From the NCBI GenBank assembly GCA_011390205.1, contig JAABSX010000029.1:1-48430 (forward strand): 48,430 nt of DNA, read 5' to 3'. This stretch comes from Microscillaceae bacterium (lineage in GTDB: Bacteria; Bacteroidota; Bacteroidia; Cytophagales; Microscillaceae). The translations under genes and the position numbers were made by a program. The notes below the pieces were generated by a model. That model worked only from the letters and a program-made list of their open reading frames with translations, ran no database searches and was not told where the DNA came from. Shown one piece after another: positions 5,226-15,475 of this stretch (position 1 is its first letter; every line of letters begins with the position of its first letter).

Positions 5226-6644
5226 TTATGAATCTTTCAGTAATGATTTTGCCTGCTCTATCCATTGATTTTTTTGAATGCGTGTGTAGGCAAAATTTAC
5301 CAATTCACTGATATTCTTGAGTTCTTCCTCATTGAGTTTAGCAATTTGCTCAAAAGTAGAGATGCCTATTTCATTGAGTTTTGCTGCCAATGAAGGTCCT
5401 ATGCCTTTGATTTCTTGTAAGTCATCTTTTTGAGAGGCCACCCTTCCTATTATCTCAGGGCTACTAGATTCTGTGCTTTCACTTTGCACTTTCTCGGTCG
5501 CTATACTTTCTTTTGAGGGAGTAATATGAGGCTCTTTTCTAAACTGTACTGCCTTGGACTCTTCTTTTGGCGTGCTTTGGGCATCTCTCTCTGTAAACCA
5601 TTGATGGATGGTAGGGGCAAGTTCTTTTTGAGAGCGTTTGCCTGTAAATACGCCGATGTGTCCTCCAGGAAACTCATAGAGTTGCTTGTCTTCGGAGCCT
5701 ATAAGTTCATTGAGTGGCTTTGTGGAGCTAGGAGGCACAAGGTGATCTTCGGAGGCATAGATAGTGAGTATGGGCATAGTAATATTTTTGAGATTTACCT
5801 GATGCTCACCGATGATGAGATCGCCCTTCACGAGTTTATTTTGTTGGTATAAATCCTTGATAAACTGTCTGTAAGTTTCTCCTGCTTGGTCAGGCAAGTC
5901 ATTAATCCATTTTTCCATTCGGTAAAAGTTCAGGAGCTTGTCTTGATTATCTAGCATATCAGTCAGATTTTTTTGTTTTCTAACTTTAAGCATAGGTTTA
6001 AGCAGCTGAAAGCCTGAATCTAAGAATGTACCAGGGATAAGCCCTCCGAAGCCCTCTACTACGGCATCTACATCTAGGTCTCTTGCCCATTTGTAGAGTA
6101 AGCCATCATTTTTAGAAAAATCCACAGGTGTAACAAGTGTGATGAGGTTTTTTACTTTTTGGGGGTGTATGGCTGAGTAAATCAAAGAAAAAGTGCCACC
6201 TTGGCATATTCCCATGAGGTTTACTTTCGAAATCTGGTGAGCCGCCCTGACATACTCTACGGCACCATTGATATAGACATTGATGTAATCATTCATAGTC
6301 AGGTAGCGCTCATTGCGGGTAGGGTATCCTGTGTCTATGACATAGATATCAAGTCCAAGGTTGAGCAGGTTGAGTATGAGGCTACGGTCAGGCTGGAGGT
6401 CAAGCATGTCATAGCGATTAATCAAGGCATAAGAGATGACAAGCGGAGTGCTGATGTTGGCAGAGCTGCTGCGCTTATATCTAAAAAGTCTGACCTTGTC
6501 CATTTCCCATACCAGTTCTTTAGGGGTAGTTCCTACTTCTATTTTCCCGATTTGCCCCATGATTTGTGCGCTTTTCTGAATTTTTTGGCTTGTTTCATTC
6601 AGCTTTTCGAGCAAGCTTCCCATGATATTAAAGTTCTCGTACAT
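5226..6644 (-). CDS. phaC: Class III PHA synthase catalytic subunit with C-terminal HhH-like domain
   Basis: This enzyme polymerises (R)-3-hydroxyacyl-CoA to polyhydroxyalkanoate on the granule surface. The first 350 residues are a class III PhaC alpha/beta-hydrolase: lipase-like box GICQGG with nucleophile Cys147, Asp300 in YASEDHLVPP, and His329 in GGHIGVFTG. The spacing almost equals that of the characterised Allochromatium enzyme (149/302/331). Class III synthases are normally about 355 residues; this one has 472. After a Ser/Glu-rich linker (about 352-405) comes DDLQEIKGIGPSLAAKLNE with IGISTFEQIAKL, typical of the helix-hairpin-helix domain also found fused to ribosomal L17/L21-type proteins. 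That domain often binds nucleic acid. The gene lies 68 bp downstream of phaE in the same direction, so they probably form an operon. Confidence 0.95.
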   Translation of the reverse strand: MYENFNIMGSLLEKLNETSQKIQKSAQIMGQIGKIEVGTTPKELVWEMDKVRLFRYKRSSSANISTPLVISYALINRYDMLDLQPDRSLILNLLNLGLDIYVIDTGYPTRNERYLTMNDYINVYINGAVEYVRAAHQISKVNLMGICQGGTFSLIYSAIHPQKVKNLITLVTPVDFSKNDGLLYKWARDLDVDAVVEGFGGLIPGTFLDSGFQLLKPMLKVRKQKNLTDMLDNQDKLLNFYRMEKWINDLPDQAGETYRQFIKDLYQQNKLVKGDLIIGEHQVNLKNITMPILTIYASEDHLVPPSSTKPLNELIGSEDKQLYEFPGGHIGVFTGKRSQKELAPTIHQWFTERDAQSTPKEESKAVQFRKEPHITPSKESIATEKVQSESTESSSPEIIGRVASQKDDLQEIKGIGPSLAAKLNEIGISTFEQIAKLNEEELKNISELVNFAYTRIQKNQWIEQAKSLLKDS

Positions 6645-6712: not shown

Positions 6713-8005
6713 CTATGCTTTCTCTTCTTCGTGATTTTTATTTATTTTTTGTTCGAGGCTTCTTACCTTATTTTTCAATTCATAGATAGTAGAGTTTAGC
6801 TCATCAATTTCAGAGCGGGGCACAAGGGGCAGAGGTGCTAGGATTTGCTCCATGAGAGAGTCCATTTTTGCTTTGATTTCTAGGCCAATTTTGAGTAAAT
6901 CACCCTGCAATTTAGAGTAAGTATCTCCCCCGAAGAGGCTGATGATTTCTTCTTCCATGGTGCCTACCCAAGTATTATAAAACTCGTCAAAACCAATGGC
7001 TTCATTGCCTTTTTGTGCTTTTTGCATGACTTCTTGCACGGCTACTTCCATGGCTTTTTGCCCTGCTACATAGATGGTGTTTTGCATTTCGCTAGATTTG
7101 ATATAATATCGGGTGTAGCGTGTCTGTATATCCATCATTAGTCCAGCCATTTCTTTTTCGGGGCTTGCAGGCACAGTCATAAAATGGGGGTGAATCATTT
7201 TTTGGAATTGTTCATTGAATTGCTGGCTAATCTGAGAGAGTGTAGAGAAGTTAGCATTTGGCACAAACTGCTGAATATTATCCATGAAAGAGGTACGCTC
7301 ACTGTTGATGTTGAGTGTGTGCATTGTCATTTCGCTGAGTTGCTGTATCATGTTCAAGAAGTTATGAGACTTACTTTGGTCAGCAAATTGGAAGATACTG
7401 CCCAATATTTCTTGGTATTTATCCATGTCGAGCATTTTGTTGAGTGAGTCAAGCCCCACGGAGTTGCTCTGTACCATTTTGTAGATGGGCTGCCACATTT
7501 CAAACATCTTCATGTAGGTGCGTGTATTATCGATGAGCTGGTGTAGGTTACTGAAGTTGGGGGTTTGTCCGAAAGATTGCATAAAATAAGGGATAGAAGG
7601 TTTAGTTGAGAACAGATTTCCATACATATTTTGCCATTCGGCATACATATTTTGCATATTTGACATTTGCCCAGTAGTGTCCATGAGATTTTTTGGGATT
7701 TTTGAAGAGCCACTGCTGAGTAGTTCAGCCCACTTTTTGCTCAATTCCATCTGAATTTCTACCCAATTTTTAAGAGAGGCCTTGCCTTTAGATTCAGTAT
7801 CTCCTTGTACATTGAGCATGTTGAGCATAGAGTCGGTCAGAGAGCGTTGTTTGTCAAACCAATTACTATACATCTCTACTGATTTTCCTACAATCTCATT
7901 CTTTTTGATTGATTCTTGTATTTTTTTAGAGGTATCTACTAGGTTATCTACTAGCTTACTCTGGGTATTCATCCAGGCATCAATAAAATTCTGAGTGCTG
8001 TCCAT
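6713..8005 (-). CDS. phaE: Class III PHA synthase subunit PhaE
   Basis: PhaE is the non-catalytic partner that activates PhaC in class III synthases. The 430-residue protein is mostly helical and Met/Gln-rich (many MNM, MQN and WQNMYG segments). It ends with the diagnostic PhaE segment LPLVPRSEIDELNSTIYELK, followed by a coiled coil (KVRSLEQKINK). The Pro-Arg-Ser-Glu-(Val/Ile)-Asp motif before the coil is the most conserved part of the family. It is somewhat longer than proteobacterial PhaE (about 360). It is the first gene of the phaE-phaC unit and is divergent from the phaJ-like hydratase. Confidence 0.9.
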   Translation of the reverse strand: MDSTQNFIDAWMNTQSKLVDNLVDTSKKIQESIKKNEIVGKSVEMYSNWFDKQRSLTDSMLNMLNVQGDTESKGKASLKNWVEIQMELSKKWAELLSSGSSKIPKNLMDTTGQMSNMQNMYAEWQNMYGNLFSTKPSIPYFMQSFGQTPNFSNLHQLIDNTRTYMKMFEMWQPIYKMVQSNSVGLDSLNKMLDMDKYQEILGSIFQFADQSKSHNFLNMIQQLSEMTMHTLNINSERTSFMDNIQQFVPNANFSTLSQISQQFNEQFQKMIHPHFMTVPASPEKEMAGLMMDIQTRYTRYYIKSSEMQNTIYVAGQKAMEVAVQEVMQKAQKGNEAIGFDEFYNTWVGTMEEEIISLFGGDTYSKLQGDLLKIGLEIKAKMDSLMEQILAPLPLVPRSEIDELNSTIYELKNKVRSLEQKINKNHEEEKA

Positions 8006-8207: not shown

Positions 8208-8612
8208 ATGATTCAAATAAATGATACTTATTCCCATACATTTCGCTTTACACAAGCAGAAGTAGTACGTTTTGCGGCATTGACTGGAGACGAAAATCCA
8301 CTGCACCTAGACAAAGATTATGCTGCCACGACTATTTTTAAACAACCAATTATGCATGGGTTTTTGGGTGCAAGTGTATTTTCAAAAGTTTTTGGAATGC
8401 TTTTTCCAGGGGAAGGGACTATTTACCTTAAGCAGAGCATGGATTTTTTAAGACCAATGCTTATAGAGACAGATTATGAAGCTACTTTTGAAATCAAGGA
8501 AATAGACTCAGAGAAGCACCGTGCTACAGTAAGCACATCTATCACTGACAAAACTACGGGCAAGCAAGTGATTAAAGGGGAGGCGCTCGTGATGCACCCC
8601 ACCAAGCTCTAA
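8208..8612 (+). CDS. phaJ: MaoC-like (R)-specific enoyl-CoA hydratase (PhaJ-type)
   Basis: A 134-residue single hot-dog-fold protein. The hydratase-2 motif is complete: FAALTGDENPLHLD at residues 22-35, with catalytic Asp28 and His33, followed by IMHGFL. Enzymes of this family hydrate trans-2-enoyl-CoA to (R)-3-hydroxyacyl-CoA, which feeds fatty-acid beta-oxidation intermediates into PHA synthesis. The gene is divergent from phaE-phaC and shares their upstream region, which supports that role. A general MaoC-family hydratase in another pathway cannot be excluded, so the symbol is tentative. Its stop codon interlocks with the stop of dagK on the other strand. Confidence 0.8.
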   Translation: MIQINDTYSHTFRFTQAEVVRFAALTGDENPLHLDKDYAATTIFKQPIMHGFLGASVFSKVFGMLFPGEGTIYLKQSMDFLRPMLIETDYEATFEIKEIDSEKHRATVSTSITDKTTGKQVIKGEALVMHPTKL

Positions 8613-13939: not shown

Positions 13940-15475
13940 CTAAAAAATAACTGAGACTTTTAAAAAGTCTTTTCTGATTTTATCTATGTTATCTTTTTGG
14001 AGAGCGTTTCCTTGTAGGTTTATTTTCTCTAATTCGGGGAGCTCATCGGATGAAATATCAATGGCTGTAATCTGATTATTTTCTACATAAATTTCTTGAA
14101 GATGTTTCAGCATTTTGATGTTTTGAGGTAATTCGCTGAGTTGATTATTGCCCATAAATACACTTCTGAGTTCTACAAGAGAAGAAAAATCAAGGCTGCG
14201 AAGTTGGTTATGGCTCAAATCTAAGGAGTACAAATACTTCATAAGCTCTTGCCCGAAGTCAAGTGTCTTTAGTTGGTTTTTTTTGATGACCAAGGCTTTC
14301 AAGTTTTTGAGTAGCCAGAGGCTAGGAGGCAGCTCGCTGAGTTGGTTATCACTTAAATCTAGCACAGTGAGTTCAGCCATTCGCCCAAAATCAGGGCTGA
14401 GTGCCTGTATTTTATTTCTCCCTAGATAAAGGACTTTTAGCGAATGGAGCAAACAAAGGCGGCTTTCCCAAGATTCAAGTTGATTTTGTCCGAGGTCTAA
14501 GAAGACTAAATTTTGGAGTTTTTCTAAATTTTGGGGCAGTGTGCTGAGTGCATTGTCAGATACATCAAGGTATTGCAGTCCTGCCAGTGTATGTAGGGTT
14601 TCGGGCAGGCTGTTGAGTTGGTTATGCTCCAGATTCAGGTTATTGAGTTTTGCCATACTCTTAAAATTGGCAGGCATACTCGAGAGTAGATTATAAGAAA
14701 TATCTAATTTTTCAATACTTTTTAGTTTTTTCCAGTCATCTGGGAGTTGCTTTAGTTGATTGTGGGCTATATACATTTCTTGTATTTTTTCTAACCTCGT
14801 GATTTCGTCGGGGAGTGTCTGAAGCTGGTTATAGTCTATCCATAGTTTTTTTAGCTGTGTAAGTTGCTGTATTTTTTTTGGGATATTTTTAATCCGATTA
14901 TGGCTCAATATAAGTATTTCGAGCCCATTGCCAAGTGTTTGGGGGAGGCTGTCTAGCCGATTATGGGTAATGGAAAGCTCTCGGAGATTCTCCAGCAAGG
15001 CAATGCTATCAGAGAGCTGTGTCAGGAGGTTATTGTCTAGCTGGAGTGTCCGTAGGTTACTCATCCCGAAGATGCTCTGAGGGATGGCAGTGAGTCGAAG
15101 AGATTTCAGCTCCAGTATTTGTAAATTATCTAAGGTATCTAGCTCCTCAGGAAACGATTCTATGGGATTATTAGAAAGTCGCAAGATTTTGAGCTGCTTG
15201 AGTGCTGCCACTTTTCCAGGCACAAGGGTGATTTGATTGTTGTTAAGGTTGAGCTCTTGTAGATTTTTAAAAAGAAGGATTTCTCCTGGCACCTCGCTTA
15301 GCTTTTGGTTGCTGAGGTCAAGTCTGATGACTTTCTCAGGTTCTTTGCTCGCCTTTTTTATATCTCTGTAGATTGGCTGCGTATAATTGTATGTGTGGGC
15401 TTGGGTCTGGTCTTGAGCAGTGCTATTAAGGATAGACAGTACACAAACTAACATAAGAACTGGATATGTTTTCAT
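13940..15475 (-). CDS. Secreted leucine-rich repeat protein (about 20 repeats)
   Basis: A 511-residue protein with a signal peptide (MKTYPVLMLVCVLSILNSTAQ) and, from about residue 47 to the end, some twenty leucine-rich repeats of 22-24 residues (patterns such as LQELNLNNNQIT, LEILILSHNRIKNIP, LEKLDISYNLLSS). No T9SS sorting domain or membrane anchor is visible, so it is expected in the periplasm or outside. The fold is a solenoid used for protein binding. The repeat unit is similar to that of the cytoplasmic LRR protein at 1257-2306. It is directly upstream of murB, an unusual partner for an LRR protein; a cell-wall role is possible but unproven. Confidence 0.88.
   Translation of the reverse strand: MKTYPVLMLVCVLSILNSTAQDQTQAHTYNYTQPIYRDIKKASKEPEKVIRLDLSNQKLSEVPGEILLFKNLQELNLNNNQITLVPGKVAALKQLKILRLSNNPIESFPEELDTLDNLQILELKSLRLTAIPQSIFGMSNLRTLQLDNNLLTQLSDSIALLENLRELSITHNRLDSLPQTLGNGLEILILSHNRIKNIPKKIQQLTQLKKLWIDYNQLQTLPDEITRLEKIQEMYIAHNQLKQLPDDWKKLKSIEKLDISYNLLSSMPANFKSMAKLNNLNLEHNQLNSLPETLHTLAGLQYLDVSDNALSTLPQNLEKLQNLVFLDLGQNQLESWESRLCLLHSLKVLYLGRNKIQALSPDFGRMAELTVLDLSDNQLSELPPSLWLLKNLKALVIKKNQLKTLDFGQELMKYLYSLDLSHNQLRSLDFSSLVELRSVFMGNNQLSELPQNIKMLKHLQEIYVENNQITAIDISSDELPELEKINLQGNALQKDNIDKIRKDFLKVSVIF

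Follow-up and report, generated by a model that had tools for sequence, protein, structure and literature searches.

The open reading frame at 5226-6644 encodes the catalytic subunit of a class III PhaEC synthase, and its product, as read from the sequence, is a complete PhaC which continues into a linker and a C-terminal helix-hairpin-helix (HhH) domain. We give about an even chance to the reading that this tail is a built-in nucleoid anchor for the PHA granule. An earlier note on this DNA had read the frame as a synthase with an HhH tail and had proposed a nucleoid tether. Both parts of its assignment stood, though it mentioned neither PhaH nor the haloarchaeal PhaCs with an HhH domain, and the tether role seems plausible and now better grounded, and is still unproven.

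The class III assignment was made from a profile, a catalytic triad and a gene neighbor. TIGR01836 matched residues 10-353 at 443.3 bits, above its curated cut-off of 365.3; the Cys-Asp-His triad named in the earlier note occupies invariant columns in an alignment of 24 PhaC sequences; and phaE adjoins phaC. The normal end of PhaC, which the note had placed near residue 350, is found here at about 354, and the frame itself was confirmed, with the addition of its strand (minus), which the note had not given. The MaoC-type dehydratase encoded divergently from phaEC may supply PHA precursors. Two leucine-rich-repeat type proteins, recognized by eye, are encoded near the PHA genes on the minus strand, at 1257-2306 and 13940-15475. 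Coordinates refer to the window, the whole stretch of 48,430 nucleotides that was analysed.

Table 1. Features of the phaEC locus, in positions of the window.
Feature	Position	Strand	Remarks
PhaC with HhH tail, open reading frame	5226-6644	minus	472 aa
PhaC catalytic part, residues 1-354	5583-6644	minus	TIGR01836 443.3 bits; invariant triad; well folded in model
Cys147 codon	6204-6206	minus	PhaC triad
Asp300 codon	5745-5747	minus	PhaC triad
His329 codon	5658-5660	minus	PhaC triad
Linker, residues 355-403, Ser/Glu-rich, predicted disordered	5436-5582	minus	pLDDT <50 at 369-407
HhH domain, residues 404-472 (predicted)	5229-5435	minus	PF14520 32.2 bits; NCBIfam C-termini; AlphaFold2 tail model
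HhH hairpin G414-I-G-P417	5394-5405	minus	
phaE, partner subunit	6713-8005	minus	PF09712 E 2.2e-20; 68 bases upstream of phaC
MaoC-type dehydratase, divergent from phaEC	8208-8612	plus	PF01575 E 1.7e-17

The residues added to PhaC hold a Ser/Glu-rich linker and then an HhH domain, as had been proposed, and the profile search and structure prediction suggested as checks in the earlier note both returned the domain. Pfam HHH_5 (PF14520) matched residues 407-446 at 32.2 bits, above its gathering score of 27, and AlphaFold2, given residues 400-472 alone with a 16-sequence alignment, predicted four helices and a helical turn with a pLDDT of 84.9. The full-length model, built from an alignment of 24 sequences in which every other row lacks the tail, was less confident in this region: the linker fell below 50 at residues 369-407, and the tail reached roughly 50-75, its two final helices being merged. 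It is therefore the profile matches and the model of the tail alone that support the HhH fold, and they point to a real HhH domain at residues 404-472.

The nearest folds of the tail model were PolQ helicase (Z 8.7), RadA N-domains (Z 8.5 over 62 residues) and NusA acidic repeats (Z 8.3), where, by the tool's own warning, a Z of about 8 can reflect no more than a common arrangement; Foldseek with the same model returned no match at E 0.001 or better. RadA/Rad51 N-domains contact DNA, and NusA acidic repeats bind proteins. The tail is slightly acidic, with a net charge of -2 on the HhH part and -1 on the linker. Its hairpin and core positions are kept, and the residue after GIGP is Ser, a position at which Lys is common in PhaE tails.

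By sequence, the tail matched the C-termini of four NCBIfam families: NuoE (E 2.4e-17), L21 (2.9e-17), PhaH (2.7e-15) and S2 (8.7e-12). The match to the PhaH model, NF045508, covers profile positions 139-231, which correspond to the C-terminal HhH of PhaH; taken as a whole-protein match it scored 58.5 bits against a cut-off of 250 and spanned positions 138-231 only, leaving the phasin N-terminus unmatched. PhaH is a protein of Caulobacter crescentus, reportedly described by Salinas et al. in 2023. Relatives in the PDB, found with the A2 profile, were 8yy9 chain O (E 1.8e-23) and 9wqv chain a (E 6.6e-23). The C-terminal HhH of NuoE, L21, S2 and RC protein-O belongs to the same domain family as the PhaC tail and is carried by other host proteins. 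In 40 Bacteroidia regions (L168-L207), picked from the tail-only matches of a class-wide search and mostly read by eye, the domain ends S1, S2, L17, L21, NrfD-type (probably ActC), ActD, CBM48 and membrane coiled-coil proteins. Pfam, applied to ten HhH carriers including one from the genome studied here, found a named partner domain in eight and had no match in two.

This range of carriers suits a second reading, a serious competitor of the first which we consider rather unlikely: the tail would be a protein-docking module that recognizes one common protein, perhaps on the ribosome, on RNA polymerase or at the membrane, and makes no contact with nucleic acid. The slight acidity of the tail and the NusA repeats among its fold neighbors agree with docking, as does RC protein-O of D. 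shibae (8yy9), which carries an HhH domain that cannot be seen in the map and whose physiological function is called obscure in the available text of PMC12079452. Against docking, the RadA N-domains are equally near in fold, the HhH of PhaH is reported to bind DNA (PMC13052382, in the text available), and the basic, Lys-rich PhaE tail of relatives would suit a polyanion better than a specific protein.

The anchor reading draws on known tethers. In the accessible parts of PMC13052382, PhaM, PhaF and PhaH are described as granule-nucleoid tethers that bind the granule through their N-terminal part and DNA through their C-terminal part; PhaM and PhaF use histone-like DNA-binding domains, while PhaH, a Caulobacter phasin, binds DNA non-specifically via its HhH and distributes PHB granules. 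PhaH is also cited in the reference list of PMC11858518. Since the HhH of the PhaC tail and the PhaH C-terminus are homologous, the proposed nucleoid-tether role has a precedent. Both are granule proteins with homologous C-terminal HhH domains, but PhaH is a separate phasin, whereas here the HhH is fused to the synthase and the profile match leaves out the N-terminal part of PhaH. With PhaM and PhaF the tail would share the job of attaching the granule to the nucleoid; unlike it, they are separate proteins, and their domains are histone-like where the tail is HhH and not basic. Tether tails of the PhaF/PhaM type are basic and Ala/Lys/Pro-rich, and with the charges given above the PhaC tail is not one of them. 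In the genome studied here, phasin families PF09361 and PF05597 had no match at E 0.01, and the PhaH model matched only through the PhaC tail and a CBM48 protein.

The fusion of HhH to PhaC is rare in the survey of other Bacteroidota, a check which the earlier note had also put forward. Among 15 genomes of the family, the PhaC match reaches into the tail only in the present one (G000) and in G009, a member of another genus, so a family-wide fusion was rejected. An order-level sample of 390 genomes held 36 with a class III PhaC match above 200 bits, and the tail occurs in two of these, again G000 and G009, both of this family; in a class-level sample of 395 genomes, 39 had a PhaC match above 200 bits (G000 included, and G235 with a fragment), and only G000 has the tail. 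In the G009 assembly the catalytic part of PhaC is divided between two frames (L047/L051, on C46), either by a sequencing error or because the gene is a pseudogene, and the tail shares an open frame with the C-terminal half of PhaC. Since the PhaCs of G000 and G009 hang, together with close relatives, on one unresolved node of the PhaC tree, a single fusion event for the two is possible at most.

Aligned without gaps, the tails of G000 and G009 show 42% identity across 71 residues, and their linkers are little alike. This difference suggests selection on the domain, which, like the kept hairpin and core positions, argues against the tail being the neutral capture of a mobile, promiscuous domain with no function of its own. 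Such a capture would agree with how widespread the domain is at C-termini and with a fusion found in two genera only; we regard it as very improbable.

Outside bacteria, the long PhaCs of Haloferax mediterranei and other haloarchaea share the layout of class III PhaC, linker and C-terminal HhH. PhaCs from six haloarchaeal plasmid records align over 96-98% of the length of the protein studied here at 34-35% identity, and the four that were checked all have an HhH, best matched by a RadA profile in three and by TIGR03491 in one; the PhaH profile had no match in these four tails at E 1e-5. The haloarchaeal proteins sit apart from the present PhaC in the tree, which was built quickly and flagged for a long branch at the haloarchaeal root and in which the PhaC-HhH label changes twice, both times forced by starred branches. 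Because the haloarchaeal tails score best with RadA or TIGR03491, and none with PhaH, that fusion is likely independent. It is already in print, in PMC12028471, whose available text calls the domain absent from bacterial PhaC.

The haloarchaeal proteins also bear on a reading that we think improbable, in which synthase activity or PhaE-PhaC assembly, and not positioning, requires the tail. The C-terminal extension of Haloferax PhaC is reported to be indispensable for activity (PMC6631277 and PMC2939530, as far as their text is available) and contains the HhH (PMC12028471, likewise), and G000 and G009, the two genomes with a PhaC-HhH, also have a PhaE unlike that of their relatives. Against a role in activity, relatives in the family whose catalytic part is 66-72% identical have a tail-less PhaC, the linker is long and predicted to be disordered, and placing the C-terminus of Haloferax PhaC3 on PhaC2 gave no activity (stated in the accessible text of PMC2939530, data not shown there).

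The difference in PhaE follows the PhaC tail within the family. PhaE is present in 11 of the 15 genomes. All nine PhaEs beside a tail-less PhaC continue for 56-84 residues past the conserved PLVP motif to a Lys/Thr-rich end (counted by eye for G004, where one letter of the motif is different), and the two beside a PhaC-HhH continue for 34 and 39. At the present locus the phaE product stops shortly past its coiled coil and lacks the longer Lys/Thr-rich tail seen in its family relatives. The contrast in charge is sensitive to the number of terminal residues counted. Over the last 15, the net charge is +3 to +5 in 9/9 genomes with a tail-less PhaC and -1 in both PhaC-HhH genomes; over the last 12, it is +3 or more in seven of the nine; over the last 20, it is +2 here and 0 in G009, against +3 to +6 in the nine relatives. 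Within its last 20 residues the present PhaE has six Lys/Arg, as many as its relatives, and four acidic residues, which gives the net +2.

A wider comparison used 95 unique complexes, which remained from 147 loci after 115 with both PhaC and PhaE ends in view were retained and 20 duplicates removed; L165 (Nitrospirae) was left out, its PhaC end having been missed by the filter. With a basic end defined as a net charge of at least +3 in the last 12 residues, PhaE has one in 47 of the 67 complexes without an HhH or a PhaC tail (20/67 fall below), in neither of the two with a PhaC-HhH, and in none of the 12 with a long proteobacterial PhaC tail. The background was 42 of 339 other long open reading frames of these loci, which may include non-genes. 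Counted over the last 15 residues, the figures become 44/67, 0/2 and 2/12. The PhaC tree contains 101 of 118 rows after removal of duplicates, and on the 67 of those 101 used for the exclusion test, none of 14 rows with a PhaC tail had a basic PhaE end, against 41 of 53 others (sign test, p 0.5). This exclusion is not significant, because the tree offers only two independent contrasts. As a pattern it deserves testing, and it is no proven rule.

HhH domains occur on the other subunit as well. Among the best 80 of 131 relatives, no PhaC carried an HhH (0/80 loci at E 1e-3, with a seed model built here), and at 15 loci the open reading frame just upstream of phaC, which is PhaE, did. Thirteen of these frames match PF09712 (E 1e-4) and the other two match a PhaE model built here. 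The PhaH, NuoE and L21 profiles match all 15 PhaEs and the S2 profile 14; L153 has a different HhH subtype, and L130, from Phaeodactylibacter xiamenensis, is one of the PhaE-HhH loci. These Saprospiria-type loci, with coverage to about residue 470, had been candidates for further PhaC tails and were rejected as such, the HhH sitting on PhaE upstream. The sample is uneven, because it comprises the best 80 of 131 relatives and was scanned with patterns suited to Bacteroidota and proteobacterial PhaCs. In the PhaC tree all 15 fall within one supported clade, which has 23 rows; 18 of these bear the titles Saprospiraceae, Lewinellaceae or Phaeodactylibacter. The eight rows of the clade without an HhH on PhaE are intermixed with the 15, and all have basic PhaE ends, with a net charge between +3 and +5 over the final 12 residues. 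The PhaE-HhH label changes six times on the best PhaC tree, with one change forced by starred branches. In other Bacteroidota, PhaE mostly has a basic C-terminal tail. Six MAGs titled Actinomyces viscosus, Candidatus Kuenenia and Chryseobacterium gleum (L108, L115, L117, L121, L122, L131) have closely similar PhaCs which form two small groups inside a Bacteroidota clade, and their record names are probably wrong.

Elsewhere, a tail is found on PhaC. Twelve proteobacterial loci and one of Nitrospirae have PhaC tails of 23-91 residues, mostly Ala/Lys/Pro-rich and with a net charge of +3 to +16 except for L135 at -5, and their PhaEs stop near the coiled coil. The proteobacterial tails, of 29-91 residues, are those of L135 (acidic), L136, L138, L141, L143, L147, L150, L151, L156 and L161-L163. 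Three rhizobial-type plasmid PhaCs end at the catalytic domain, beside PhaE ends of net +2, +4 and -1. L235, a Rhizobium PhaEC, has neither kind of tail, and an anchor is therefore not universal. In the open-access full text searched, neither PhaC nor PhaE of bacteria was seen mentioned as the carrier of an HhH. The HhH on PhaE in Saprospiria-type loci and the distribution of PhaC and PhaE tails over relatives are new here.

Altogether, the anchor is favored by the homology to PhaH and the role reported for PhaH, by a domain kept across two genera while the linker differs, by the haloarchaeal PhaCs with an HhH of their own, by the two phasin families that had no match in this genome, and by a distribution of anchor-like tails over PhaC and PhaE which fits it: one such tail per synthase complex, switching subunit and chemistry, would agree with a nucleoid tether. 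Weighing against the anchor are the charge of the HhH part and linker, the Ser in place of the common Lys after GIGP, the NusA repeats among the fold neighbors, the same domain on ribosomal, membrane and carbohydrate-binding proteins, a tail exclusion which rests on two contrasts and depends on the measure, and the tail-less L235. If the tail is an anchor, PhaC would stay on the granule surface as the polymer grows, and the HhH tails of the many synthases on each granule would use the GIG hairpin to bind the nucleoid, or nearby RNA, in a weak and sequence-independent manner. Jointly they would keep the granule attached to the nucleoid and distribute granules between the two daughter cells, as PhaM, PhaF or PhaH do elsewhere, and in relatives the basic PhaE tail or the HhH on PhaE would do the same work.

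A broader reading, offered tentatively and with the balance somewhat against it, is that the class III complexes of many bacteria carry one interchangeable built-in nucleic-acid anchor which moves between PhaC and PhaE and whose chemistry may be HhH, Lys/Thr-rich or Ala/Lys/Pro-rich, so that the polymerase and not a phasin positions the organelle. A glycogen-type module with the same HhH in this genome may do likewise for another storage polymer. What is known of PHB granule positioning comes from a small number of proteobacterial proteins, PhaM, PhaF and PhaH (available text of PMC13052382). If the synthase complex carries the anchor, positioning would be set at granule birth and a phasin would be unnecessary. 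The swaps between HhH and basic tails in relatives would then be a natural experiment, and a testable function would be gained for the domain, which is also present on ribosomal, respiratory and photosynthetic complexes and whose role is called obscure (PMC12079452, in the part available).

The glycogen-type protein is a 205-aa CBM48-type protein ending in the same HhH (L002:1174-1791, on C58), the second storage-polymer-type protein with such a tail in this genome. A CBM48/AMPK1_CBM glycogen-binding-type module with a C-terminal HhH is found in L002, L058, L197 and L205, of which L002 and L205 were checked with Pfam. Elsewhere in Bacteroidia the C-terminal HhH looks like a tag of large assemblies: ribosomal proteins S1, S2, L17 and L21 and subunits of the alternative-complex-III type. 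The idea that the tail domain had a single identifiable donor was given up, since the tail tree, built from 73 rows and 65 columns, lacked resolution. One further carrier in the family, L055, is a membrane and coiled-coil protein whose tail is 40% identical to the PhaC tail; judged by eye it adjoins an OmpA-like gene, and its host, G001, is a family member with a tail-less PhaC.
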